IMG/VR virus record: IMGVR_UViG_3300005534_000024
Location: 1-40,068 of that record
Length of the DNA: 40,068 nucleotides
Reading direction: 5' to 3' (one strand)
Source: a virus
The notes under the pieces are model-generated. The model did not search any database. It was given only the letters and a program-made list of their open reading frames with translations, and was not told where the DNA came from. Of the stretch, positions 7,698-34,729 are shown piece after piece. The first letter of the stretch is position 1; the number at the start of each line of letters is the position of its first letter. The translations under genes were made by a program, and so were the position numbers.

Positions 7698-7741
7698 TCG
7701 TCGGCATAACGGAGAGGAAACTTCAGCGATTATGCCGACGA
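7698..7741. repeat. perfect 12-bp inverted repeat at the TerL stop codon
   Basis: TCGTCGGCATAA at 7698-7709 and TTATGCCGACGA at 7730-7741 with a 20-base spacer. The right arm contains the stop codon and last codons of the terminase ATPase gene. It may be a weak terminator (no T run follows), an mRNA stabiliser, or a recombination site. Confidence 0.6.
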
Positions 7742-8731
7742 CTGCGCAAGAGCTTGTATATGCTCGTCCTCCTGACCGCGCATCATGGCCATCTCCACCC
7801 AGTCCATCGGGATAAGCGCGTTTGACTCCGAGCTGCAGAAACGGCCTAGCACGCGGCTGATATAGGCTGCGCTGTCCTCGCCCCACTCCAGTTTCTTCTG
7901 CTCCATGAAGTCGAGAGACATGCGTCCAGCGGCAAGCACTTCTTCCGTAGTTACGTAGCGGCAGTGCCAGGCTTTGTATTTCTCCCTGTCCTTCTGGATT
8001 TCGTAGAAGCGCCCTATCGGGTTCCCTGGCGTCGACATAGTGAGGATGTACGCCTCCCTCCCTGTGTCACCACCGGCCCCGGACAGCGCGCCTTCGGCCG
8101 CATCAAAGATTTCGTCGGGCACCGCCTTGCTCTCATCGATGACATAGAGGAGGCTGTCTGCGTGAGCGCCTTCCAGCTTCGCCGGCTCTTCCGGCGCGAC
8201 GCAGAAGGCTCGCCCGTTGGAGAGGATGAGTTCGAGGGTTAGAAGCTCATTGCGAGGATTAAAAGGTGGGCGGCCGATCTTGTCCCACTTCAACTGTTTG
8301 CACCACTTCTTAACTTCAGGCCAGAGAAAATTACGAAGCTGTGTGCCTACCGAGGCGGTAATACAAATCTTGAAGTCTACCCCTGTGGCTTCTCGGGTTA
8401 AAGCGAACCACAGGATTAAAACTGAGGCGGTGCAGCTCTTACCGAGGCCGTGGGCGCCGCGTACGCAGATACGGCGTTTGTCGGTTATGTCGTTGAGTAT
8501 CTCTTCCTGATAAGCGGTGAGAAATTCGCCATGTTTCCACTTGATACAGTCTCTGGCGAATTCGACAGGATTATGATAGTAAGTTTGCCCGAACTTCTCA
8601 AACTCCGACGTCCGCCTCGCCTTCGCCTGCGCCAGAAGCTGCGCCGTCTCCTTCTCCAACTGCTTCGCCTTCTGCGCTGCAGCGCCCGTCGGTAAGCGCA
8701 GCAATCCCAGCGAGTCTATCTCCTTCGCCAT
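7730..8731 (-). CDS. terminase large subunit, ATPase domain only
   Basis: 333 aa. DNA-packaging motor ATPase. Visible motifs: Walker A RGAHGLGKS at residues 91-99, Walker B LLYVIDE at 194-200 followed by SKAVPDEIFDA, and coupling motif TMSTPGNPIG near 231-240. The chain ends at the linker segment ALIPMDWVEMAMMRGQED, which in ordinary TerL proteins leads into the RNase H-like nuclease; here it stops. Normal length is about 450-600 aa. The missing nuclease half is found at 21788-22474 on the other strand. The ATG is preceded by GAAGG and the gene overlaps terS by 134 bases. Confidence 0.93.
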   Translation of the reverse strand: MAKEIDSLGLLRLPTGAAAQKAKQLEKETAQLLAQAKARRTSEFEKFGQTYYHNPVEFARDCIKWKHGEFLTAYQEEILNDITDKRRICVRGAHGLGKSCTASVLILWFALTREATGVDFKICITASVGTQLRNFLWPEVKKWCKQLKWDKIGRPPFNPRNELLTLELILSNGRAFCVAPEEPAKLEGAHADSLLYVIDESKAVPDEIFDAAEGALSGAGGDTGREAYILTMSTPGNPIGRFYEIQKDREKYKAWHCRYVTTEEVLAAGRMSLDFMEQKKLEWGEDSAAYISRVLGRFCSSESNALIPMDWVEMAMMRGQEDEHIQALAQSSA

Positions 8732-11481: not shown

Positions 11482-12092
11482 TGTCTAATGACCCCCGCCT
11501 AAAACTTACTGGCCCGTTCACGGCCCGAGTAGATCCCGACGTCTATGAAAAGCTCCGCGTCTATAAGTTCTACGCCGACTCGAACGGCCTTGGCTACCGC
11601 TGGAACGAGGACAAGACCAAGCGAATCTTCCTCCATCGCGAGGTGACAGGGGCTGGCCCTGGCGAATGGGTCTTCTTCCTGAACGAGGACCCAACCGACT
11701 GCCGGCGCGAGAACCTTGGTGTCTGTCCCCGCGGGGCGAAGCGCACCTATCGGCGCCGCGCCGTTCTGGAGAAGATGAAATCGGAACATCCGGCATCCGG
11801 GGAGGGGGCATCTATCCGTCTGACTGACGGCAGCGAGGTATGGGTCGACGCGGACGTGTACGACAGCCTGAAGGACCGAATCTGGCATCGATATAATGGC
11901 TGCGCGATGACGGTTCTCCCTGACGGGAAGCATCATTTTCTCCACCGCGAAGTCATGGGCTCGCCGCGTGGTCTCTACATCACTTTCAAGGATGGCGATA
12001 AACTAAACTGCAGACGAAACAATCTTGTCACATTCCATCCGGGCACCAAGCATGCCGTTCTGGCAGAGCTACGCGAGGAGGAAAACGCATGA
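11481..12092 (+). CDS. tandem degenerate HNH-like DNA-binding protein
   Basis: 203 aa with two copies of the HNH-type fold. Copy 1: ARVDPDVYEKLRVYKFYAD ... FLHREVTG ... DCRRENLGVC. Copy 2: VWVDADVYDSLKDRIWHRY ... FLHREVMG ... NCRRNNLVTF. In both copies the 'LHREV' strand and 'RRxNL' helix are kept but the catalytic histidines before them are gone (WVFFLNEDPT and YITFKDGDKL). This pattern suggests an endonuclease fold reused for DNA binding. Compare the intact HNH at 32516. Its end overlaps the prepilin start (ATGA). Confidence 0.65.
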   Translation: MSNDPRLKLTGPFTARVDPDVYEKLRVYKFYADSNGLGYRWNEDKTKRIFLHREVTGAGPGEWVFFLNEDPTDCRRENLGVCPRGAKRTYRRRAVLEKMKSEHPASGEGASIRLTDGSEVWVDADVYDSLKDRIWHRYNGCAMTVLPDGKHHFLHREVMGSPRGLYITFKDGDKLNCRRNNLVTFHPGTKHAVLAELREEENA

Positions 12093-12688
12093 TCCACCGG
12101 CGATCTGTCAAAGGGTTCACCCTCATTGAGCTGCTCGTCGTGATCGGCATCGTCGTGCTGCTCGCCGCTTTGCTTCTGCCGGCGCTTCAGGCCGCCAGAA
12201 ACAAGGCCCTCACCGCCGGCTGCCTGTCGAACCTCCGGCAGATTGGCTTCTCCCTCCGCATGTACCTCGACGACAACGACTCCTATTTCCCCGTGGGCGC
12301 CTATAACAGCGCGTCTCCCTCTCCCACTCCGCAGTGGGACGTCACTTGGCGTGACCTTCTCCTCCCCTATGCTGACTACCGCTCTACCCTGTACGCTTGT
12401 CCCGGATCTGTTTCTGATCAAAACTCCTACGGATGTAACCCCTGGCTCAGTCAATACTATCGGTCGATTTCCACGGCCACCCTTGACACCGATGACAAAG
12501 TTTGGGCCGGGGACCACATTACCGGGGACTGGGCCATTTTTCCGTGGGCCTACCGCGACGATCCCCGGCACCTCTACCTCACCCCACGACATCTCGGCCG
12601 CGTCAACATCCTCTTCGTCGACGGACGGGCACAGACGCTCCCCGTCGAGGCGCTGAACCTCATTCATCGCTACTGGCTGCCGCAGTAA
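12089..12688 (+). CDS. type IV pilin / pseudopilin-like prepilin
   Basis: 199 aa. N-terminus MIHRRSVKGFTLIELLVVIG is a classic prepilin leader: cleavage expected between Gly9 and Phe10, Glu at +5, then a long hydrophobic helix (LLAALLLPALQAARNKAL). The segment CLSNLRQIGFSLRMYLDDND and the C-terminal RHLGRVNILFVDGRAQTLP are typical of the large pseudopilin families of PVC, Armatimonadota and related bacteria. Expected to be processed by a prepilin peptidase and inserted in the host inner membrane or a pilus. RBS GAGGAGGAAAAC lies in the previous gene; a terminator follows. GC-rich wobble use (CTC, ATC) differs somewhat from the left block, suggesting host origin. Confidence 0.9.
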   Translation: MIHRRSVKGFTLIELLVVIGIVVLLAALLLPALQAARNKALTAGCLSNLRQIGFSLRMYLDDNDSYFPVGAYNSASPSPTPQWDVTWRDLLLPYADYRSTLYACPGSVSDQNSYGCNPWLSQYYRSISTATLDTDDKVWAGDHITGDWAIFPWAYRDDPRHLYLTPRHLGRVNILFVDGRAQTLPVEALNLIHRYWLPQ

Positions 12689-18295: not shown

Positions 18296-18341
18296 ACCGG
18301 TAAGCGTTAGCGTTTACTGGTATCGGCTAACGCTTACCGGT
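18296..18341. repeat. 46-bp inverted repeat at the serine recombinase stop: terminator or attP
   Basis: ACCGGTAAGCGTTAGC (18296-18311) and its exact complement GCTAACGCTTACCGGT (18326-18341) with a 14-base centre. The centre itself partly repeats the arm (CGTTTACTGG). The right arm encodes the last residues TGKR and stop of the recombinase. Attachment sites of large serine recombinases are imperfect palindromes of about 40-50 bp next to the gene, so this is a good attP candidate; a terminator is the alternative (no T run). Confidence 0.5.
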
Positions 18342-19931
18342 GCAGGAATCAGGCACCCAATCGAGCCATTCGACCCCTACAACCCGTCGGCAGAGGCTCA
18401 CCTGGCCCGGCACCGATTCGACTGCCGCCCAGAGGTAGCGGATGAATCCCTTCACGATGCGCCGCCGAAGGGCGGGCTCGACTTCGGGCCACCACTCTTG
18501 AAGACGGGGCATCTTATCGGTAACGAAAGGAAGCAGTCCGTCGAGATCAGGAGCCTCGGGACCGGCAGTCGCAGCGACGGCTTGAATCTCGGTCGTAAGC
18601 CGCTGAATGTCCTTCTCCTTGACGGCGCGGAGTCGGGCGATAGAGGCCCGCTGGATCTCACTCTCTTCGTCCAACTCGCGCCGGAGGAGATCGTCGAGCT
18701 GTCGTTCGGCCCGTCCTCGCTCAGCGGTGAGGGTCTCCAGATCGCGTCCAGCAGCGGTGTGAACCGCACGAAGGGCCTGGCGCGACCGATGCTCTTCAAG
18801 AGATTCGCGAAGCAGTTCGGGAGCGTCGAAGATTCGAGCCAGAGCTGCTTCAGCAGCGGCGTGAACGACATAGCGAGGGATGTAGACGCGGGCGACCTCG
18901 GGGCTGGCCTTTGTCGGCCGGCTTCTTCCGGCCTCATATGTCCAGCGGCTCGGATCGTCAGGGCGGTTCCGGTAGTTGCTGTCGGTGGCGAGGTAGGCGC
19001 TGCACTCCGGGTGGGAAACAAAACGCAGTACATCGCGGCACCAGCCATTCTCGTCACTGCCGGGATTAGCCCGCCGGTGTGCTCGCTGCCGAAGGACTAC
19101 CTGTATCTGCTCCCACCGATCCCGACTGCACGCCGGCTCATACGTTCCCTGCCGCTCCGGCCATCGCCAGTCTTCGCGCTTCAGCCGGACATGCTTTCGC
19201 GAGCACTCGCGCTCGCCATGATGGGGACCGGTACGGCGCGCCGGCCAGCCGCAGATGGTGGGGTTGGTGAGGGTCTGGTAAACGACCCACCGGCCCACAC
19301 CCCAACGGGCGGCGATCCGGTCAATGGAAAGCGAGAATATCTCTTCGCACCATCGCTGCAGGATCGTAAACTGCTCGGGGTGCGGCACGAAGTCCTCCCG
19401 TTCCGGATCCCAGCGATAGCCGAACGGCTCGCGCCCGTTCGGGGTCCGTCCTTCTCGGAGAAGCTTCTCCAGCTTGAGGGCCTTGCGCTCTTTGTACTTG
19501 CCGAGTTCATGCTCAGCGAAGATCCACTGGATCTGGGCCATGAGCCGGTCGTCGGTGTTGCGGAGATCGTAGCGGCGATGGAGGGTGAGGATGTGGATAT
19601 CGGCGCGCGCCAGGGCGTCGGCGATCCGCCCGCGCTCCTGCATGGATCCCCGAGAAAGGCGCTCCAACTCGGTGACGAGGACGATGCCGCCCGCATCGTA
19701 GGGCAGCCTCTCCCAGTACTCCAGCAACGCTTTGAAACGCGGGCGACCGCTGATCGTTTCGGCCGATCCGATTTCTCGGATGTAGCGTTCAGGGGGGATA
19801 ACGAGATCCTCGCGCAAGGCGAGGCGTTCCAGGGCTTCCTGGTGGTGGTCAAGGATCTTCGGATCGTCCGGGTCACCGAGCGCCCTCGACTTCCGGAGGT
19901 AGGGATAAAGACTGTTGTTCTCGTTCTGCAC
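18327..19931 (-). CDS. large serine recombinase
   Basis: 534 aa, within the 450-600 range of large serine integrases. Catalytic serine: YLRKSRA with Ser15 and Arg13. Resolvase core continues with IREIGSAETISGRPRFKALL and LVTELERLSRGSMQERGRI. The 'recombinase' domain follows (GREPFGYRWDPERED ... RIAARWGVGRWVVYQTLTNP). The zinc ribbon is weak: HPECSAY has one Cys and the usual CxxC pairs are not clear, which is unusual. A long coiled coil (TAERGRAERQLDDLLRREL) is the synapsis-control arm. It likely integrates or excises DNA. Start overlaps the gene at 19873-20067 by 59 bases. Confidence 0.9.
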   Translation of the reverse strand: MQNENNSLYPYLRKSRALGDPDDPKILDHHQEALERLALREDLVIPPERYIREIGSAETISGRPRFKALLEYWERLPYDAGGIVLVTELERLSRGSMQERGRIADALARADIHILTLHRRYDLRNTDDRLMAQIQWIFAEHELGKYKERKALKLEKLLREGRTPNGREPFGYRWDPEREDFVPHPEQFTILQRWCEEIFSLSIDRIAARWGVGRWVVYQTLTNPTICGWPARRTGPHHGERECSRKHVRLKREDWRWPERQGTYEPACSRDRWEQIQVVLRQRAHRRANPGSDENGWCRDVLRFVSHPECSAYLATDSNYRNRPDDPSRWTYEAGRSRPTKASPEVARVYIPRYVVHAAAEAALARIFDAPELLRESLEEHRSRQALRAVHTAAGRDLETLTAERGRAERQLDDLLRRELDEESEIQRASIARLRAVKEKDIQRLTTEIQAVAATAGPEAPDLDGLLPFVTDKMPRLQEWWPEVEPALRRRIVKGFIRYLWAAVESVPGQVSLCRRVVGVEWLDWVPDSCTGKR

Positions 19932-20163: not shown

Positions 20164-21276
20164 TCAGTCTGGCTCTGCAGCCGCACCGCAGTTCGCCTGA
20201 AACCCCCTTTCGAACCGCTGCGCGGCGTCCTGCTCCACACTGGTCAGGAGATGGCCATAGACATCCATCGTTACACCGATTCCGCTGTGACCGACGCGGG
20301 AGCTGATGGCTTTCATCTCCACGCCATACTTGATGAGGAGGGAGACATGCGTGTGTCGTAAGTCGTGAAACCGCATCTTTGGCAGCTTGTTACGGCGCAG
20401 TAAATCGGCAAACGCGTGGCTGAATGCATCGGGAGCCATGGGCCTCCCATCGGGACGGCAGAGAATTAAACCCTCGGATCTTTGATAGTTCCGGAGGACG
20501 CTGGTTGCTCCCGGCGGGAGGAAAATCGTCCTCCGGCTGGCTTTTGATTTCGGTCGCTTAATTAGTGTCCCTGCATTAACACGGGCGGCTGCCCACTTTA
20601 CCGACACTGTTTCTCTCTGCAGGTCGATGTCTTCCCAGCGAAGGGCCAGTATCTCCCCGCGCCGGAGACCGGTAAAGAGGGCGAGAAGAATCGGAAGGTA
20701 TAAAACCGTTCCTGCTGCCGCAGCGAGTAACTGATGCGCCTGCTGTTCGTTGAGAATAACCACGTCTGCATCATCCGGCTTCGGCGGCTTGACCAAACCC
20801 ACCGGATTTCGTTCTAACAGTCCATCATTAACCGCCTGCTGCAGAGCCTGATACAAGACGCGATGCAGGTGGCCAACACTGCAGGCGGATAAACCTCCCT
20901 TTCCATCTATCCGACCGGATTCTTTCATTTCCGAATAGAAAAGGCGAAGATCATTGGCGTTCAATTCCGAAAGGCGACGATTCCCCAGATGGGGAATCAG
21001 GTGATTGTTGACGTGTCGCTCGTTTGTTTCATACGTTGTGACCTGGACGGATGCCTTGACACCTTGAAGCCACCGCCCTAAAAAATCACGAACGGTTTCT
21101 TTTGTCGCGTCAACGCGGTGGCCTGATCGCTGCTGGGATCGAAGACGAATCTCTTCTTTCTTTGCTTCGGATTCCGTTTTGATATGAGGGCAACTGATCC
21201 ACTTTTGAATGCTTTTTCCAGCAGCGTTTTTCGTTCCGATCCGAACATACCATGTGTTGCCTCGTTTAATGACCAT
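20164..21276 (-). CDS. int: tyrosine recombinase / phage integrase
   Basis: 370 aa from ATG 21276, which has AAGGAGGGCCGGTG upstream; an in-frame start at 21366 adds 30 unlikely residues. N-terminal beta-sheet arm-binding domain (VIKRGNTWYVRIGTKNAAGK), core-binding SAM-like domain (TTYETNERHVNNHLIPHLGN) and catalytic domain with Arg in FTGLRRGEILALRW, Lys in KRPKSKASRRT, HxxR in RFHDLRHTH, His in RVGHSG and nucleophile Tyr in MDVYGHL. Complete and probably active. It and the serine recombinase are transcribed the same way, unusual in one phage. Confidence 0.93.
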   Translation of the reverse strand: MVIKRGNTWYVRIGTKNAAGKSIQKWISCPHIKTESEAKKEEIRLRSQQRSGHRVDATKETVRDFLGRWLQGVKASVQVTTYETNERHVNNHLIPHLGNRRLSELNANDLRLFYSEMKESGRIDGKGGLSACSVGHLHRVLYQALQQAVNDGLLERNPVGLVKPPKPDDADVVILNEQQAHQLLAAAAGTVLYLPILLALFTGLRRGEILALRWEDIDLQRETVSVKWAAARVNAGTLIKRPKSKASRRTIFLPPGATSVLRNYQRSEGLILCRPDGRPMAPDAFSHAFADLLRRNKLPKMRFHDLRHTHVSLLIKYGVEMKAISSRVGHSGIGVTMDVYGHLLTSVEQDAAQRFERGFQANCGAAAEPD

Positions 21277-21357
21277 CACCGGCCCTCCTTGATCTCTGTG
21301 ACTCCTGTTGGATAACGGCAGGATTGTCACTTCCCTCTCGGGTATATGGACGCTTGC

Positions 21358-21374
21358 TTTAACCATCGGTTAAA
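21358..21374. promoter_or_regulatory. operator-like inverted repeat
   Basis: TTTAACC-ATC-GGTTAAA lies between the divergent integrase and the rightward promoter at 21393, a suitable place for a repressor site. Confidence 0.4.
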
Positions 21375-21437: not shown

Positions 21438-21788
21438 ATGCCAATGGATCGGCCAGTTCGGACTCTCTACCGGTCAAGGCACGCCTCTCTCGTTAAAATG
21501 GGCATGATGGCACAAAAAACTTTCTCTGACGGATATCGATTCTCGGTCACCCTCAACGGCTCGCCTCTCGACGACGTCCTCTGGGCGGACGAGGAAACGG
21601 GGCAGGCCGAGGTCTACGAACACGCGTGGTCTCTGGAACAGCGCGGCCAGCGCGTTCCGGATTCCGATTCAGTAACTGGCTACCGCACCTTCATCGTGCG
21701 CGGCGACATCCGTATCATCGATGATCAACCGCCCGCGCAGCCCCCTCTACCGATCATGGACCCCTGGTCTGGATGGATGCCGTCCTGA
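21438..21788 (+). CDS. small hypothetical protein
   Basis: 116 aa at the longest; starts at 21504 or 21507 (MAQKTFSDGYRFSVTLNG) fit the globular part better, but no start has a good RBS. The core is beta-rich (YRFSVTLNGSPLDDVLWADE ... YRTFIVRGDIRIID) and the tail proline-rich. The stop overlaps the nuclease start as TGATG. Unknown. Confidence 0.5.
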   Translation: MPMDRPVRTLYRSRHASLVKMGMMAQKTFSDGYRFSVTLNGSPLDDVLWADEETGQAEVYEHAWSLEQRGQRVPDSDSVTGYRTFIVRGDIRIIDDQPPAQPPLPIMDPWSGWMPS

Positions 21789-22474
21789 TGCGCACCTTCG
21801 GTGTCGACGTCGCCCGCGAGGGCGGAGATAAGTCTTGCTGCATCGTTCGCGAGGATAACAAGGTTCTCCTGATCGATGCATGGACGAAATCGGACATCCC
21901 GCAGTCGGCCGACCGGGTGGAGCGGCTCTATCGTCGGTACGGAGCCGAGCAGATCATGGTCGACTGCGACGGGTTGGGAGTAGGCGTTCATGACATCCTG
22001 CGGCAAAAGGGCCTCCCCGTCTTTGCCTTTCACGGACAGGCGCGGACTGAACGGAAAGATTCCAGCGGCGAGCTGGGATTCAGTAACATGCGGTCGCTTG
22101 CCTGGTGGAATCTCAGGCAAATCCTTGACCCCCACAAAGGGTTCAACCTCATCCTCCCCAAACATGACGGGCTGCTCGGCGACCTGACCTGTCCTCGGTG
22201 GGACGTCCAGAATCAGAGAATTAGTATTGAAGCAAAAGAGCAGATCAAAAAACGGCTGGGCCGTTCCCCGGATTTCGGAGATGCTCTCGCCTACGCTTTC
22301 TGTCCGATGGAGGGAGCGAACTTCGAGGAGAACTTTCGCATCCTGACCGCCGCGGACGTCGAGGCGTTGGCGCTTCAAAACCAGGCGAAAGAGCCGCGCA
22401 CCGAGGAAACCCAACTCGACGCCATGCTGTGGCAGGGCGCCCACCAGAATTTTGATCTGTTCAGCGAATACTAA
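21788..22474 (+). CDS. terminase large subunit, nuclease domain only
   Basis: 228 aa from ATG 21788 in the TGATG overlap. RNase H-like endonuclease half of TerL: FGVDVAREGGDKS with Asp7, MVDCDGLGVGVHDILRQKG with Asp59/Asp61, FSNMRSLAWWNLRQIL, and RLGRSPDFGDALAYAF with Asp162/Asp165. These are the standard positions of the three-acid metal site that cuts the concatemer at packaging. There is no ATPase domain; that is at 7730-8731 on the other strand. RuvC-type resolvase is a weaker alternative because the 'N-x-R-x-x-x-W-W' and 'GRSPDxGDA' segments are terminase-specific. Coupled to the upstream gene, so this is an organised gene, not debris. Confidence 0.88.
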   Translation: MRTFGVDVAREGGDKSCCIVREDNKVLLIDAWTKSDIPQSADRVERLYRRYGAEQIMVDCDGLGVGVHDILRQKGLPVFAFHGQARTERKDSSGELGFSNMRSLAWWNLRQILDPHKGFNLILPKHDGLLGDLTCPRWDVQNQRISIEAKEQIKKRLGRSPDFGDALAYAFCPMEGANFEENFRILTAADVEALALQNQAKEPRTEETQLDAMLWQGAHQNFDLFSEY

Positions 22475-29168: not shown

Positions 29169-29198
29169 TTGACGAAAACGCGTTGCCTCTTATAAACT
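29169..29198 (+). promoter_or_regulatory. promoter for the tRNA-like cassette
   Basis: TTGACG (29169-29174), 18-base spacer, TAAACT (29193-29198), directly after the methyltransferase gene. Confidence 0.65.
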
Positions 29199-29264: not shown

Positions 29265-29335
29265 TGGGCAACTAGCTTAAAGAAAGCGTCCGGACTCCCT
29301 GCCGGAAGACGAGGGGGCGGTACCCTCTAGCCCAC
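29265..29335 (+). ncRNA. cloverleaf-like element without canonical tRNA loops
   Basis: Can fold as: acceptor TGGGCAA / TAGCCCA (6 of 7 pairs), D-type stem GCTT-AAAGA-AAGC, anticodon-type stem TCCGG-ACTCCCTG-CCGGA (8-base loop), variable AGAC, T-type stem GAGGG-GGCGGTA-CCCTC (7-base loop, no TTC). Stem order and sizes fit a tRNA, but the T and D loops lack conserved bases, so standard tRNA finders would miss or reject it. May be a degenerate tRNA or a coincidental fold. Confidence 0.35.
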
Positions 29336-29387
29336 AAATATAGATCGTGGCAGAAACAGGATGTTGCGTGATTAGAAGGAGACTGTT

Positions 29388-29807
29388 TTGAAGCTTTCCC
29401 TTGTTGCGGTTGTTTGCGGGCTGTTCTTCCTGATGTGCGGCGCGTTTACGCAGACGGCGATGGCGGACTCGAAGCCGATGAGTTATGATCTGACCCTCGT
29501 TCTCCGTTCGCCGTTATGGAGCAGCCGGGATGGCTATGTTGATAATTACCGGACGACGGAATTCGGCGGGATGTTGAAGCTGAATAACGTCATCGCCAGT
29601 TTGCCGCGCCTCCATCCGTTCATCTCTGGTATGCACGCCGTCGGCGGATGGAATACGATCTTCGACGCCAAGAATGAGTTTCAGGCAGGTGCGGATTGGG
29701 ATCTCGGTTGCGGGTTTACGCTCTCCAGTTGGTATGACAAGCACCTCACCAAAGACGTGGACCGAGTTTTCGTTGCGATCAAGTACGGAACGCACGGCAT
29801 TTTTTAG
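29388..29807 (+). CDS. secreted or periplasmic protein, TTG start
   Basis: 139 aa from TTG 29388 with AGAAGGAGACTGTT upstream. Signal peptide MKLSLVAVVCGLFFLMCGAF, predicted cleavage after TAMA. The mature part alternates beta strands (YDLTLVLRSPLW, GYVDNYRTTEFGGMLKLNN, GADWDLGCGFTLSSWYD), recalling a piece of an outer-membrane beta-barrel. Too short for a whole barrel. Sits inside the tRNA-like cassette. A surface-modifying function is a guess. Confidence 0.65.
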   Translation: MKLSLVAVVCGLFFLMCGAFTQTAMADSKPMSYDLTLVLRSPLWSSRDGYVDNYRTTEFGGMLKLNNVIASLPRLHPFISGMHAVGGWNTIFDAKNEFQAGADWDLGCGFTLSSWYDKHLTKDVDRVFVAIKYGTHGIF

Positions 29808-29820
29808 CCGTTAGACGTAG

Positions 29821-29864
29821 AAGGCCGACTGGTATTCGCGAGGTTCGATTCCTCGCCGGCCTTT
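29821..29864 (+). ncRNA. acceptor plus T-arm minihelix (truncated tRNA)
   Basis: AAGGCCG (29821-29827) pairs with CGGCCTT (29857-29863). A canonical T arm CGAGG-TTCGATT-CCTCG precedes the 3' strand. Only 11 bases join the 5' acceptor strand to the T arm, so D and anticodon arms are absent. Cannot decode but could be seen by RNase P, CCA-adding enzyme or EF-Tu. Confidence 0.5.
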
Positions 29865-30047
29865 GGAAGCCAAACCAAAGGAGGCGGCAGTATCCCGGCC
29901 ATCCGGGGAGAATCTGGCCGATATGGAGGCGCGGTTTCCATTACAGGGGAAGCATATTTCGCGAGGTATGCAGACTAGCCGGATTGATCCCCGGTCTCTG
30001 AGGGCGGTGGACAAGAAACAAGAAGCCGTTGCTACTCGCCCCTGTTT

Positions 30048-30168
30048 GGAGCGTTAGCGCAGACGGACTGCGCATGGTTTAGGGGCACCTATCCCTGATG
30101 CCGGGATGCCATTGATCGAACTGAACTGCAGCAAGGGAGATCATCTGGGTCGGCTCCAGAACGCTCCA
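30048..30168 (+). tRNA. expanded tRNA-like element (121 nt)
   Basis: Acceptor GGAGCGT / ACGCTCC plus A; TA linker; D arm GCGC-AGACGGACT-GCGC; then extra sequence, a 5-bp hairpin ATCCC-TGATGCC-GGGAT with a 7-base loop lacking U33, a stem TGATC / GATCA, and T arm TCTGG-GTCGGCT-CCAGA (T54 and A58 lost). About 30-45 bases longer than a normal tRNA. May be degenerate or carry an insertion. Confidence 0.4.
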
Positions 30169-30182
30169 TTAAATGATTAACC

Positions 30183-30203
30183 GGAGGTGATGCGATGAAG
30201 TAG
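30183..30203 (+). other. two-codon minigene with perfect Shine-Dalgarno
   Basis: GGAGGTGAT, a 9-base full complement of the usual 16S 3' end, then GCG-ATG-AAG-TAG at 30195-30203. ATG-CGA-TGA is also readable at 30190. Minigenes like this (lambda bar) can trap tRNA as peptidyl-tRNA; here the role is inference. Confidence 0.4.
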
Positions 30204-30256
30204 CATTCATTTAAAAACGAGGCATGTTTAGGACAATTCACGCCTGGAGAAGCAAG

Positions 30257-30286
30257 CAGGGCTGTCGCTTCGGGGCGACAGCCCTG
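30257..30286 (+). terminator. strong hairpin
   Basis: CAGGGCTGTCGC / GCGACAGCCCTG, 12-bp stem with 6-base loop TTCGGG. Followed by ATTAAAA, not a T run, so it may be a processing or attenuation element inside the cassette. Confidence 0.55.
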
Positions 30287-30305
30287 ATTAAAAGGAAAAT
30301 GGACG

Positions 30306-30500
30306 GTGCGTAGACTCATTTCGTATTGTCACGGGGTGGTCCGAAGGATGTTTTGTCGCCATCCAGAACGAGAAATGATAGCCATCGAGCGCCACCTAGA
30401 AAGTTATCAGCGGTTCGGTCGTTATGAATGTCCTGACTGCGGTGATCGCTGGTTGTCTGTTGAATTGCCAGAAACCGTTTACAGACAACGGCCCTGGTAG
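30306..30500 (+). CDS. small zinc-ribbon-like protein
   Basis: 64 aa, GTG start after AAAAGGAAAATGGAC. MFCRHPEREMIAIERHLESY and YECPDCGDRWLSV form a CxxH...CxxC site, a layout common in short phage proteins. Function unknown. Located between tRNA-like elements. Confidence 0.6.
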   Translation: MRRLISYCHGVVRRMFCRHPEREMIAIERHLESYQRFGRYECPDCGDRWLSVELPETVYRQRPW

Positions 30501-30511
30501 TTATTGATTAC

Positions 30512-30610
30512 GGAGCGGCAGTAAGCGGTACTGATGTGCATTTGTCAGCGTGAACTAGGCCGGGCAGCCGCATGTTAACGCACTCGCTGGTTCAAATCCA
30601 GCCCGCTCCT
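30512..30610 (+). tRNA. tRNA-like element, class II layout, possible anticodon GCA
   Basis: Acceptor GGAGCGG / CCGCTCC plus T; short D arm GTA-AGCGG-TAC; anticodon arm CTGAT-GTGCATTT-GTCAG (8-base loop with T33 and GCA next); long extra arm GCGTGAAC / GTTAACGC with one mismatch; perfect T arm GCTGG-TTCAAAT-CCAGC. 99 nt. T arm and acceptor are canonical. If functional it could be Cys-type or a frameshift-suppressing species, but the 8-base loop is against normal decoding. Confidence 0.5.
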
Positions 30611-30626
30611 TCCCCGAAAGGGGAAC
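30611..30626 (+). repeat. GAAA-tetraloop hairpin
   Basis: TTCCCC-GAAA-GGGGAA directly after the tRNA-like element's last base. A stable GNRA hairpin in the transcript, perhaps a processing boundary. Confidence 0.55.
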
Positions 30627-30660
30627 GTGGAACCGATCTGATCATAATCAATCTCCTTTT

Positions 30661-30678
30661 GGGAGGCGAAATCCTCCC
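30661..30678 (+). repeat. hairpin before the fourth tRNA-like element
   Basis: GGGAGG-CGAAAT-CCTCCC then ATTTCTT. May terminate weakly or serve as a spacer structure. Confidence 0.5.
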
Positions 30679-30685
30679 ATTTCTT

Positions 30686-30747
30686 GAAGCGACGGGCTTT
30701 GGTCAGCTCATGCGACGGCATTCCAGGTTCGATTCCTGGGCGCTTCC
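30686..30747 (+). tRNA. truncated tRNA-like element without anticodon loop (62 nt)
   Basis: Acceptor GAAGCGA / GCGCTTC (6 of 7 pairs) plus C, D arm GGGC-TTTGGTCA-GCTC with GG in the loop, then ATGC-GACG-GCAT (4-bp stem, 4-base loop) where the anticodon arm should be, no variable loop, and a perfect T arm CCAGG-TTCGATT-CCTGG. It cannot read a codon in a normal way. Confidence 0.45.
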
Positions 30748-30802
30748 TCCGGCAATCAAGCCGGGCTCTGCCCTTTCCTCATTGCATATCCCTTTTGTTC
30801 GG

Positions 30803-30834
30803 GGAGGAGAAGTGCTCTCTCCTCCTCTTTTTTT
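30803..30834 (+). terminator. intrinsic terminator ending at a start codon
   Basis: GGAGGAGA-N7-TCTCCTCC then TCTTTTTTT; the next ATG (30835) follows directly. Its 5' arm is the only Shine-Dalgarno-like sequence in front of that gene. Confidence 0.8.
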
Positions 30835-31191: not shown

Positions 31192-31382
31192 GATGCGCGC
31201 GCTGCGGGCAGTTGAGGTCCAATCTCGTATCCTATCCGTGGGAAGGGTGGAAGACCCATTGGCAAAACGGAATGTTTTGGATTTGTCCGGACTGCTTAAA
31301 TGAACTGTTGGGTTGGTGGCTAGACCTGACCAAGACGATGCAGTCTCCGGATCCTTCTAAACTCAATCAAAATAAACGATGA
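31188..31382 (+). CDS. small zinc-ribbon protein
   Basis: 64 aa at ATGA overlap. MRCARCGQLRSNLV and WICPDCLNELLGWW form a CxxC...CxxC site. Directly upstream of and overlapping the clamp gene (ATGA), so cotranslated with it. Unknown role in replication. Confidence 0.65.
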   Translation: MRCARCGQLRSNLVSYPWEGWKTHWQNGMFWICPDCLNELLGWWLDLTKTMQSPDPSKLNQNKR

Positions 31383-32506
31383 AAATCACCTGCCAATCAC
31401 AACACCTAAAAGAGATTCTGAAACTCACTGCCCGAGGGGTGAAGAAAACATCCCCTATCCCCATCCTCCAGAATGTCAAGCTTGCCACAGACAACGATCT
31501 CGGGCTGACTTTGACGGCCACTGATTATGATCTTGAGATAACGTGCTGTCTGGGCTGCAACGTTCAGGAACCCGGAGCAGTGACTGTTCCTGCCCGCCAG
31601 TTTCTGGAAATCGTCGGCGCTGCGGCTGGACCGGAAGTCACCATCACCGCAGACGAGAACCTGCAAGTCCAGATCAAGAGTGCTCGCAGTCGTCACAAGC
31701 TCTACGGAATCAATCCAGCAGAGTTCCCGTCTCTTTCGGAAACAAAGGATGGGGAAGGGCTCATTTTGCCCGTCAGCCTCCTGCGGGATATGTTCGCGAA
31801 GGTCCTTCACGCTGTCAGCAAAGACGAAACTCGGACGGGAATGACCGGCGCCCTGCTGATGGTAAAGGGCAATGGCGCACGAATTGCGGCTACGGACACC
31901 TACCGTCTGGCGGTGTACGACATTGGCTTTGAGGGTGACACAGGTCGCGAGTTCAGCGCCTTGATTCCCAAACGGACGCTGACCGAAATTCTTCATTTTC
32001 TTGCTTCCGACGACGAGGAGGACGAGATTGAGGTGCGGGTCGATGAACAGCAGATCGAGTTTCGAACCCGGCTTTACACCGTCAAGAGCCGCTTGCTGGC
32101 GGGCCAGTTCCCAAACATCGATAAGGTCATCGATCTGGTTTGTGACAACAAGCATGATGTGATCGTTCCTCGCCACCCCTTGATCGAGGCCCTGAAGCGA
32201 ATGGATATCGTGGCCCGCGATGACGCCCACCGGATCAAGTGGGAGGTGGCCGGGAGAACTCTGTTTCTCTCTGCACACGCATCAGATCTCGGCGAGAGCG
32301 GAGAGGACTTGGAGATTTGTGATACCTCGCCTCCCGAAGGCATGTCGATCTGGTTCCGCGCCGATCAGCTGTTAGAAGCCCTGCAGGCGTTCGATGGCGA
32401 TACGGTGACGTTTGCGTACCAATCGGCAAAGCGGCCCGTTAGCCTGTTCCCTTCCGACGGCGCTTACTTCGAGGTCCTCATGCCTGTCGTCGCCCCGGAG
32501 GGATGA
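31379..32506 (+). CDS. dnaN: DNA polymerase III beta sliding clamp
   Basis: 375 aa, normal length for the bacterial clamp (about 365-380). Three-domain pattern present: N-terminal LKEILKLTARGVKKTSPIPILQN style clamp opening, EFPSLSETKDGEGLILPVSL, middle TGALLMVKGNGARIAATDTYRLAVYD, and C-terminal FRADQLLEALQAFDGDTVTFAY with final YFEVLMPVVAPEG in place of the usual LMPMRL. Ring that holds the DNA polymerase on DNA; also binds repair and ligase partners. A phage copy may keep phage synthesis independent of the host or recruit a phage polymerase outside this window. Confidence 0.95.
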   Translation: MKITCQSQHLKEILKLTARGVKKTSPIPILQNVKLATDNDLGLTLTATDYDLEITCCLGCNVQEPGAVTVPARQFLEIVGAAAGPEVTITADENLQVQIKSARSRHKLYGINPAEFPSLSETKDGEGLILPVSLLRDMFAKVLHAVSKDETRTGMTGALLMVKGNGARIAATDTYRLAVYDIGFEGDTGREFSALIPKRTLTEILHFLASDDEEDEIEVRVDEQQIEFRTRLYTVKSRLLAGQFPNIDKVIDLVCDNKHDVIVPRHPLIEALKRMDIVARDDAHRIKWEVAGRTLFLSAHASDLGESGEDLEICDTSPPEGMSIWFRADQLLEALQAFDGDTVTFAYQSAKRPVSLFPSDGAYFEVLMPVVAPEG

Positions 32507-33838: not shown

Positions 33839-34729
33839 ATGCTGCGTTGGGAAGACACGCTGCCGGACGATGGATCGGAGATGGAGCCACATGAACGGAA
33901 CGTGCAGTCAATCCCGACCAGTTATCCCTGTGGCCGGTCCCTCCTGAACAAAGAGGATGAAATGCGGCTTTGCAGCCGCGCCCAGGAAGGCGACGAGGAA
34001 GCCCTTCGGCAGATGATGGAGGCGAACCTGCGGCTCGTCATGTCCATCGCCCGGCGTTATCGGGGACGCAGCATGGTCTACGAAGACCTGGCCCAGGAGG
34101 GGATCATCGGCTTGTTGACGGCTATCCAGAAGTTTGATGGAACGAAGGGTTTCCGGTTCAGTACCTATGCGACGTGGTGGATACGCCAGGCGATTGTCCG
34201 AGCCATCGAGAAGAACGACCGGATGATCCGTCTCCCCATCCATGGCTGCAACGCGGAGCGGAAGATCAATCAGGCCGAGAGAGAACTGGAAGGGCGGCTG
34301 GAGCGGTCCCCGTCCATCGAAGAGCTGTCGATTGAGACGGGCCTCTCGCGCAACATGGTACAGGCTCTGGCCTTCCTGGGGACGGACCCCCTGTCGCTGG
34401 ATGTATTGATGGGCGAAGACGTCGACACTCCCTTCGTGGAGATCCTTCCCGATCCGGCCGCTATCGACCCGGAAGATAACTCCCTCCGTTCGGCGATGAA
34501 TGCCGAACTGGTCGATGCCTTCGAGGGTCTGTCGGCCAAGGAGCGGTTCGTCATCGAGCGCCGGTTCGGTTTTGCTGATGGCGGCGTGTGGACTTTGCAG
34601 GATCTGGCCGCGGAACTGAAGATGTCGCGGGAAGGCGTGCGCCACGTCGAGGGCCGGGCGATCAAGAAGCTTCGCAGCAACCTCGCCAGCAGCTCCCTGT
34701 TTCCCTACGCGGCCGACGACGCGCGGTGA
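33839..34729 (+). CDS. sigma-70 family RNA polymerase sigma factor (RpoD/RpoS type)
   Basis: 296 aa. Starts after AACAAGG. Contains regions 1.2, 2, 3 and 4: [101 protein letters not shown] and [20 protein letters not shown]. The 2.3-2.4 segment closely resembles primary sigma factors, so it probably reads a similar -10 element. Group 2-like; possibly drives the TTGACR/TAnAyW promoter set. Stop overlaps the helicase ATG (TGATG). Confidence 0.93.

Follow-up and report, generated by a model that had tools for sequence, protein, structure and literature searches.

The 40,068-nucleotide (nt) viral DNA analysed here (IMG/VR record IMGVR_UViG_3300005534_000024, positions 1 to 40,068; the whole stretch is called the window) carries a cluster of five tRNA-like elements (e1 to e5) between positions 29,265 and 30,747. 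One of them, e2, is by its architecture an instance of a class of mini-tRNAs, which keep the acceptor and T-arm of a tRNA, have no anticodon arm, are under selection for their structure, and lie between co-directional genes. Such elements in phages and actinobacterial integrative elements may be a dedicated, conserved class that punctuates transcripts for host RNase P, in the manner of mitochondrial punctuation but without real tRNAs, and the window may hold minimal and larger versions of them in one operon; we give this interpretation about an even chance of being correct.

Structure of the five elements

The original prediction, made from the letters of the window, described five elements with acceptor-like and T-arm-like stems, three of them with textbook T-arms on acceptors of 6–7 base pairs (bp). 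A search of both strands of the 40 kb for a canonical T-loop (TTCRANT) whose 5-bp stem adjoins an acceptor with 6 or more pairs gave three matches only, at 29822 (e2), 30512 (e4), and 30686 (e5). All lie within the reported cluster, and across 100 dinucleotide shuffles of the window the count averaged 0.05 and never exceeded 1, so the observation is real. An acceptor of 6–7 bp, a 5-bp T stem, and a TTCRANY loop are found together in these three elements, and not in e1 or e3.

The simplest element, e2, is a 12-bp coaxial stack of acceptor and T stem with a 10-nt linker (ACTGGTATTC, containing TGGT) and the T-loop TTCGATT; its anticodon half is missing, and that of e5 is reduced to a stub with a 4-bp stem and 4-nt loop, both as first described. 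Elements e4 and e5 are larger tRNA-like structures in the same setting, keeping a D-arm plus an insert or stub. The enlargement reported for e3 and e4 is present in both; the 8-base loop ascribed to e4, however, needs three wobble pairs and does not appear in the minimum-energy fold, and the clear 8-nt loop is that of e1.

Membership of e1 and e3 among the tRNA-like elements is probable, with moderate support for each. The only four-stem cloverleaf in the window is e1 (about 0.17 expected from Markov shuffles); its minimum-energy fold is near that cloverleaf, and its T-loop is non-canonical. The 5′ half of e3 is strongly tRNA-like (acceptor, T8, D stem, A14, and GG), but its T-loop (GTCGGCT) is also non-canonical, and on acceptor and T stem alone it scores at chance level against shuffles of the window. 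Fold z-scores for e1 to e5 are −1.7, −2.5, −2.9, −1.0, and −1.8. A 5-bp anticodon stem with a 7-nt loop occurs in none of the five, and the remark that the retained half is always the same turned out to be the key one.

Standard tools pass over the cluster. ARAGORN reports no tRNA or tmRNA in the window, and Rfam returned nothing for it at gathering score, the tRNA family (RF00005) and tmRNA included. Loosening the Rfam threshold adds sub-threshold matches only, including a partial tRNA-Sec, a match of e5 to the tRNA clan, and a partial alpha_tmRNA at e1 (13.6 bits against a threshold of 50 bits). Normal tRNAs with introns were considered and rejected, since group I introns are much longer than the inserts and there is no anticodon arm at all in e2.

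A class of elements without an anticodon arm

A blind scan of 165 related-phage loci, most of them gathered by alignment-based searches with the terminase and a phrog_4652 protein, revealed e2-like elements in Mycobacterium phage LittleE, Gordonia phages Trine and MakoManhole, and others. They share a 12-bp acceptor/T stack with a GG-containing linker of 10–11 nt on its 5′ side, a closing T-loop, and no anticodon arm. The class was defined by an 11–12 bp stack, a TTCRANY loop, and a GG-containing linker of 7–13 nt, with the anticodon arm absent; e2 alone of the five window elements has this architecture. The architecture scan of the 165 loci gave 33 matches including e2, 32 of them with a GG linker (2.7 and 1.3, respectively, in Markov shuffles).

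The class extends well beyond these loci. A search of IMG/VR with the linker/T-loop pattern gave at least 168 elements in at least 96 loci that pass the stack test, many of them not covered by the seeding pattern, and a second linker class adds further elements; the overall count is at least 364 elements in at least 201 loci, not deduplicated. Phages of Mycobacterium, Gordonia, and Streptomyces carry members of the class, as do actinobacterial integrative elements and many contigs in IMG/VR. Among bacterial and archaeal genomes, one per species, the strict pattern found 78 stretches, 74 of them with a valid stack and nearly all of these from Actinomycetota, with a few from Bacteroidota. Against Rfam 15 at gathering score, the mini elements of other phages match no family; the matches are real or near-real tRNAs only.

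Larger forms comparable to e4 and e5 also occur elsewhere. They combine a T-arm and a perfect acceptor with a stunted or odd anticodon domain, are missed by ARAGORN, and in some cases adjoin mini elements; the form in L212 scores as a tRNA in Rfam. In integrative-element-like actinobacterial loci (L333, 4109–5751; L350, 3878) a near-invariant GCCCC-GATGGTCGCA-GGCAGGG-TTCGACT lies between small genes. Several actinophages have long arrays of GGCNN pentamers (ggcaaggcaaggcat...), a low-complexity spacer, separating their mini-tRNAs.

Selection on the structure is evident from covariation. In 38 diverse copies, the window sequence excluded, 100% of cells are paired, and 189 cells are double changes (45 in shuffles); 12 of the 13 pairs vary on both sides, including a fully covarying linker pair, G-C or A-U. 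In 99 distinct copies, aligned by fitting to a model and hence biased toward structure, 97.9% of cells are paired, with 414 double-change cells against 97 in shuffles. Base 6 of the T-loop tracks the linker type (C with G..C linkers in 28 copies, T with A..T linkers in 8, exceptions 2), a tertiary covariation that is consistent with elbow-like docking of linker on T-loop, although it is not proof of it.

Orthologous gaps of the Streptomyces phages Endor1, Joe, Alsaber, and Speedwell have near-identical flanks and T stems exchanged with compensation (CCGGGG/CCCCGG in one, CCCCGG/CCGGGG in another). Stems mostly differ within one phage, and sister phages (L292, L293, L295, and L296) exchange whole stems at the same gap; it is as if stem diversity were itself selected, perhaps to avoid recombination between copies.

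The elements are placed with precision. Five annotated phages have 38 copies, 37 of them between genes, where random placement would put each copy with a probability of about 0.12; the product of these probabilities, about 1e-35, is overstated, four of the five phages being related. Most copies in these phages begin 5–14 nt past a stop codon and end 32–50 nt ahead of the next start, and the usual order is stop codon, mini-tRNA, often a small hairpin, ribosome-binding site, and start. In the four Streptomyces phages an element occupies 7 of 8 or 8 of 8 of the gaps of at least 75 nt. At all 69 multi-copy loci every copy is on the same strand, and a Nonomuraea integrative element has the same stop/mini-tRNA arrangement.

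In the window, too, small genes and elements alternate on a single strand. The order from 5′ to 3′ is e1, 53 nt, open reading frame (ORF) 29388, 14 nt, e2, a small ORF, e3, a palindrome, a zinc-ribbon-like ORF, 11 nt, e4, two hairpins, e5, and a terminator. Both e2 (14 nt past the stop of ORF 29388) and e4 (11 nt past that of ORF 30306) lie soon after a stop codon between co-directional genes; the first bases of e3 overlap the stop of ORF 29863.

Possible role and alternatives

RNase P binds the stack of T stem and acceptor and measures from the elbow, the D-loop being dispensable and a T-loop or similar structure required (PMC4919913); the elbow is clamped by RNase Z as well, and the T-arm/acceptor half is the recognition target of many tRNA enzymes (PMC4810234). 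RNase P also processes the phage M3 and C4 RNAs and some mRNAs (PMC11143913). We suggest that the elements act in cis as tRNA-like structures within a polycistronic phage transcript. They keep the parts that tRNA-processing enzymes read, namely the acceptor helix, the T-arm, and a GG-bearing linker or D-loop whose docking on the T-loop could create the elbow of a tRNA, and they drop the part that the ribosome reads, the anticodon arm. Host RNase P would cut 5′ of the acceptor, only a few bases beyond the upstream stop codon, and the 3′ side might be trimmed by RNase Z or exonucleases, leaving a transcript divided into units with defined ends.

Of three functions that the original prediction put forward, processing tags for RNase P and RNase Z are favoured by the intergenic, co-directional position of the mini-tRNAs after stop codons and by their covarying stems; cleavage itself, like formation of the elbow and any effect on the mRNA, is what we infer. 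We judge it an evenly balanced proposition that the elements are cis-acting punctuation cut by host RNase P, perhaps with RNase Z. Conservation of G1 (58%), A73 (47%), and C74 (85%) in the class fits RNase P, whereas the avoidance of C75, the A at position −1, and the missing CCA are unlike a textbook tRNA.

Several observations weigh against this interpretation. C75 is present in 13% of the class, which precludes a full RCCA contact with RNase P, and N−1 is mostly A, not T. Position 74 is T in e2, e4, and e5 (the 3′ flank of e2 is TTGG), where the class has C; a different host processing preference may account for this. When e2 is left out of a model of the main class (linker GATGGTCGYA or AATGGTTGYA), that model matches e2 in the T-arm alone (18.3 bits) and leaves the linker unmatched, so that e2 joins the class by architecture and not as a member of a sequence family; it is an instance of the class by architecture and placement, without the commonest linker or C74. 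The window elements have no independent relatives among the matches found: the only relative of the window is a 15-kb twin contig, 99.99% identical, whose single differing base lies outside the cluster. Protein searches with the beta-clamp, the methylase, and the phrog_4652 protein, and a search with the exact e2 pattern, returned this contig only, and megablast of the window against phages gave no match. Nor is the class universal: of the classical actinophages, phiC31 and the stretch of TM4 that was searched have no mini elements. Between genes 13 and 14 of phiC31 (L297, about 31491) there is a perfect T-arm, GCCGG-TTCGAAT-CCGGC, which falls outside the definition of the mini element and is possibly a larger form.

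The main rival is that the elements are structured mRNA ends with no cleavage by tRNA enzymes, serving to block exonucleases, to terminate transcription without a U-tract, or to insulate genes. Their location after stop codons and ahead of a start, their stable GC-rich stems, and the genuine terminator that closes the window cluster would all suit such a role. A plain hairpin, however, needs neither a fixed 12-bp helix with a 10–11 nt GG bulge and a near-invariant TTCRANY loop nor covariation between linker and T-loop, and U-tracts are absent 3′ of the elements; we consider this explanation unlikely.

Decay of tRNA genes acquired by the phage, with loss of the anticodon half, is quite unlikely for the window elements as a set. 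The 3′ half of e4 resembles phage tRNA-Tyr genes (96% identity over 26 nt, E 0.5, in a distant blastn search of the cluster that otherwise gave noise), the T-loop of e3 is degenerate, and the window has no close relatives beyond its twin with which conservation could be compared; independent decay, as first envisaged, is possible for e3, e4, and e5 individually. Set against this are the three perfect T-arm/acceptor combinations retained by elements that have all lost the same arm, the positions at which e2 and e4 begin past stop codons, as in the class, and the recurrence of the e2 architecture in hundreds of covarying copies elsewhere.

Released mini-tRNAs might instead act in trans, as decoys for nucleases or modification enzymes or as non-decoding aminoacyl carriers. 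They carry the half of the tRNA known to many tRNA enzymes (PMC4810234), in several copies per genome, but CCA is not encoded, C75 is avoided, the stems vary within a genome as those of one charged identity would not, and the exact intergenic placement points to a role in cis; we find a trans-acting role improbable. The anticodon-nuclease decoys of the original prediction are unlikely because the part which those nucleases cut is the part that is missing. Frameshift suppression by tRNAs with 8-base anticodon loops, its third suggestion, is highly improbable: the clear 8-nt loop of e1 on a 5-bp stem would suit it, but e2 is excluded by its lack of an anticodon arm, the loop of e5 has 4 nt, the 8-nt loop of e4 is not the favoured fold, and neither ARAGORN nor Rfam recognises a tRNA.

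If transcripts are indeed punctuated in this way, gene boundaries in many phages are marked by very small tRNA mimics, through which the phage borrows the most conserved ribozyme of its host to cut its messages; annotation would be missing this layer of phage gene control. The elements would then supply minimal substrates of RNase P from nature and offer a compact means of splitting polycistronic transcripts. The class is readily detected (42 nt, strong covariation) and is present in cultured Streptomyces and Mycobacterium phages, so the proposal can be tested directly.

Neighbouring genes and known systems

The strong terminator expected near 30803 is present and closes the cluster; the promoter-like site placed at 29169 is no more than chance would give (1 found against 1.3 expected). 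The products of ORF 29388 (no Pfam, PHROG, or NCBIfam match) and ORF 29863 (no match in family searches) are not assigned to families, and the zinc-ribbon-like product of ORF 30306 has weak PHROG matches only.

Features of the window cluster and of related loci (window positions unless a locus, L, is named)
Feature	Position	Strand	Description
e1	29265..29334	+	Cloverleaf-like: 5-bp acceptor, 4-bp D-arm, 5-bp anticodon stem with 8-nt loop, 5-bp T stem, non-canonical loop GGCGGTA
ORF 29388	29388..29807	+	139 aa, secreted-looking; TTG start after AAGGAG
e2	29822..29862	+	Mini-tRNA element, 41 nt: AGGCCG-ACTGGTATTC-GCGAGG-TTCGATT-CCTCGC-CGGCCT
ORF 29863	29863..30057	+	Small, 64 aa from TTG; likelier start ATG 29923, after GGGGAG
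e3	30048..30167	+	7/7 acceptor, tRNA-like D-arm, enlarged middle, 5/5 T stem with loop GTCGGCT
Inverted repeat	30257..30286		Perfect 12-bp, GC-rich; between e3 and ORF 30306; also a self-match of the window
ORF 30306	30306..30500	+	Small, 64 aa, zinc-ribbon-like
e4	30512..30609	+	7/7 acceptor, D-arm CAGT/ACTG, 5/5 T-arm TTCAAAT, insert of about 52 nt replacing the anticodon arm
Hairpin	30610-30625		TTCCCC-GAAA-GGGGAA, directly 3′ of e4
e5	30686..30746	+	61 nt: 6-bp acceptor, D-arm with loop TTTGGTCA, hairpin ATGC-GACG-GCAT, 5/5 T-arm TTCGATT
Intrinsic terminator	30801..30834	+	10-bp stem and T7; span also given as 30801-30827
Larger forms	L212 2624-2682; L294 9394-9461; a set in L084		Parallel e4 and e5
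GGCNN arrays	L118 5850-6300; L010 2085-2360; L012 2580-2860; L009 1150-2960; L099 7380-8250		Low-complexity spacer between mini-tRNAs

Elsewhere in the window the large terminase is split, its N-terminal half (7730–8731, minus strand) lying 13 kb from its C-terminal half (21773–22474, plus strand), which is adjoined by a serine recombinase (18327–19931) and a tyrosine integrase (20164–21366); the arrangement suggests an inversion, one of whose ends fell within the terminase gene. The window encodes its own sigma-70 factor (33839–34729) and DNA polymerase sliding clamp (31379–32506). A prepilin-like protein (12089–12688) has an N-terminal methylation motif and a C-terminal H-X9-DG-like motif (HLGRVNILFVDG), which we take to hint at a host of the Planctomycetota/Verrucomicrobiota type.

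RNase P-cut tRNA mimics and tRNA punctuation are both of known kinds; what appears to be new is a dedicated mini-tRNA, lacking the anticodon arm, in the spaces between phage genes. No description of such intergenic elements was found in the open-access literature, the only literature covered and hence weak evidence of novelty, and the passages found of the cluster J phage paper do not mention mini-tRNAs.

With canonical tRNA (RF00005) the class shares the 12-bp acceptor/T stack, the TTCRANY T-loop, and a GG able to pair with that loop; here, however, the anticodon arm is missing, stunted, or replaced, and there is no match at gathering score. Terminators without poly-U tails are said to have been described in the early region of phiC31 by Ingham et al. 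in 1995; these too are GC-rich inverted repeats between actinophage early genes, although the scan of phiC31 found no mini elements. The phage M3 RNA and the C4 RNA of P1 and P7 (PMC11143913) are likewise structured phage transcripts processed by host RNase P, but they are single RNAs and not a repeated intergenic series. The tRNA-like structure of turnip yellow mosaic virus (TYMV) and the mascRNA and menRNA rebuild the tRNA elbow and recruit tRNA enzymes, RNase P among them (PMC4810234). That of TYMV is a pseudoknot present once, at the genome's 3′ end, whereas the mini-tRNA is a plain bulged hairpin in many intergenic copies.

A further parallel is mitochondrial. In the polycistronic transcripts of mitochondria, tRNAs between genes mark the sites cut by RNase P and RNase Z, and the phage elements resemble them in being tRNA structures between genes; the mitochondrial ones, however, are real decoding tRNAs, whereas those described here are non-decoding elements of 41–42 nt, belong to phages and mobile elements, and would be cut in the way we propose.
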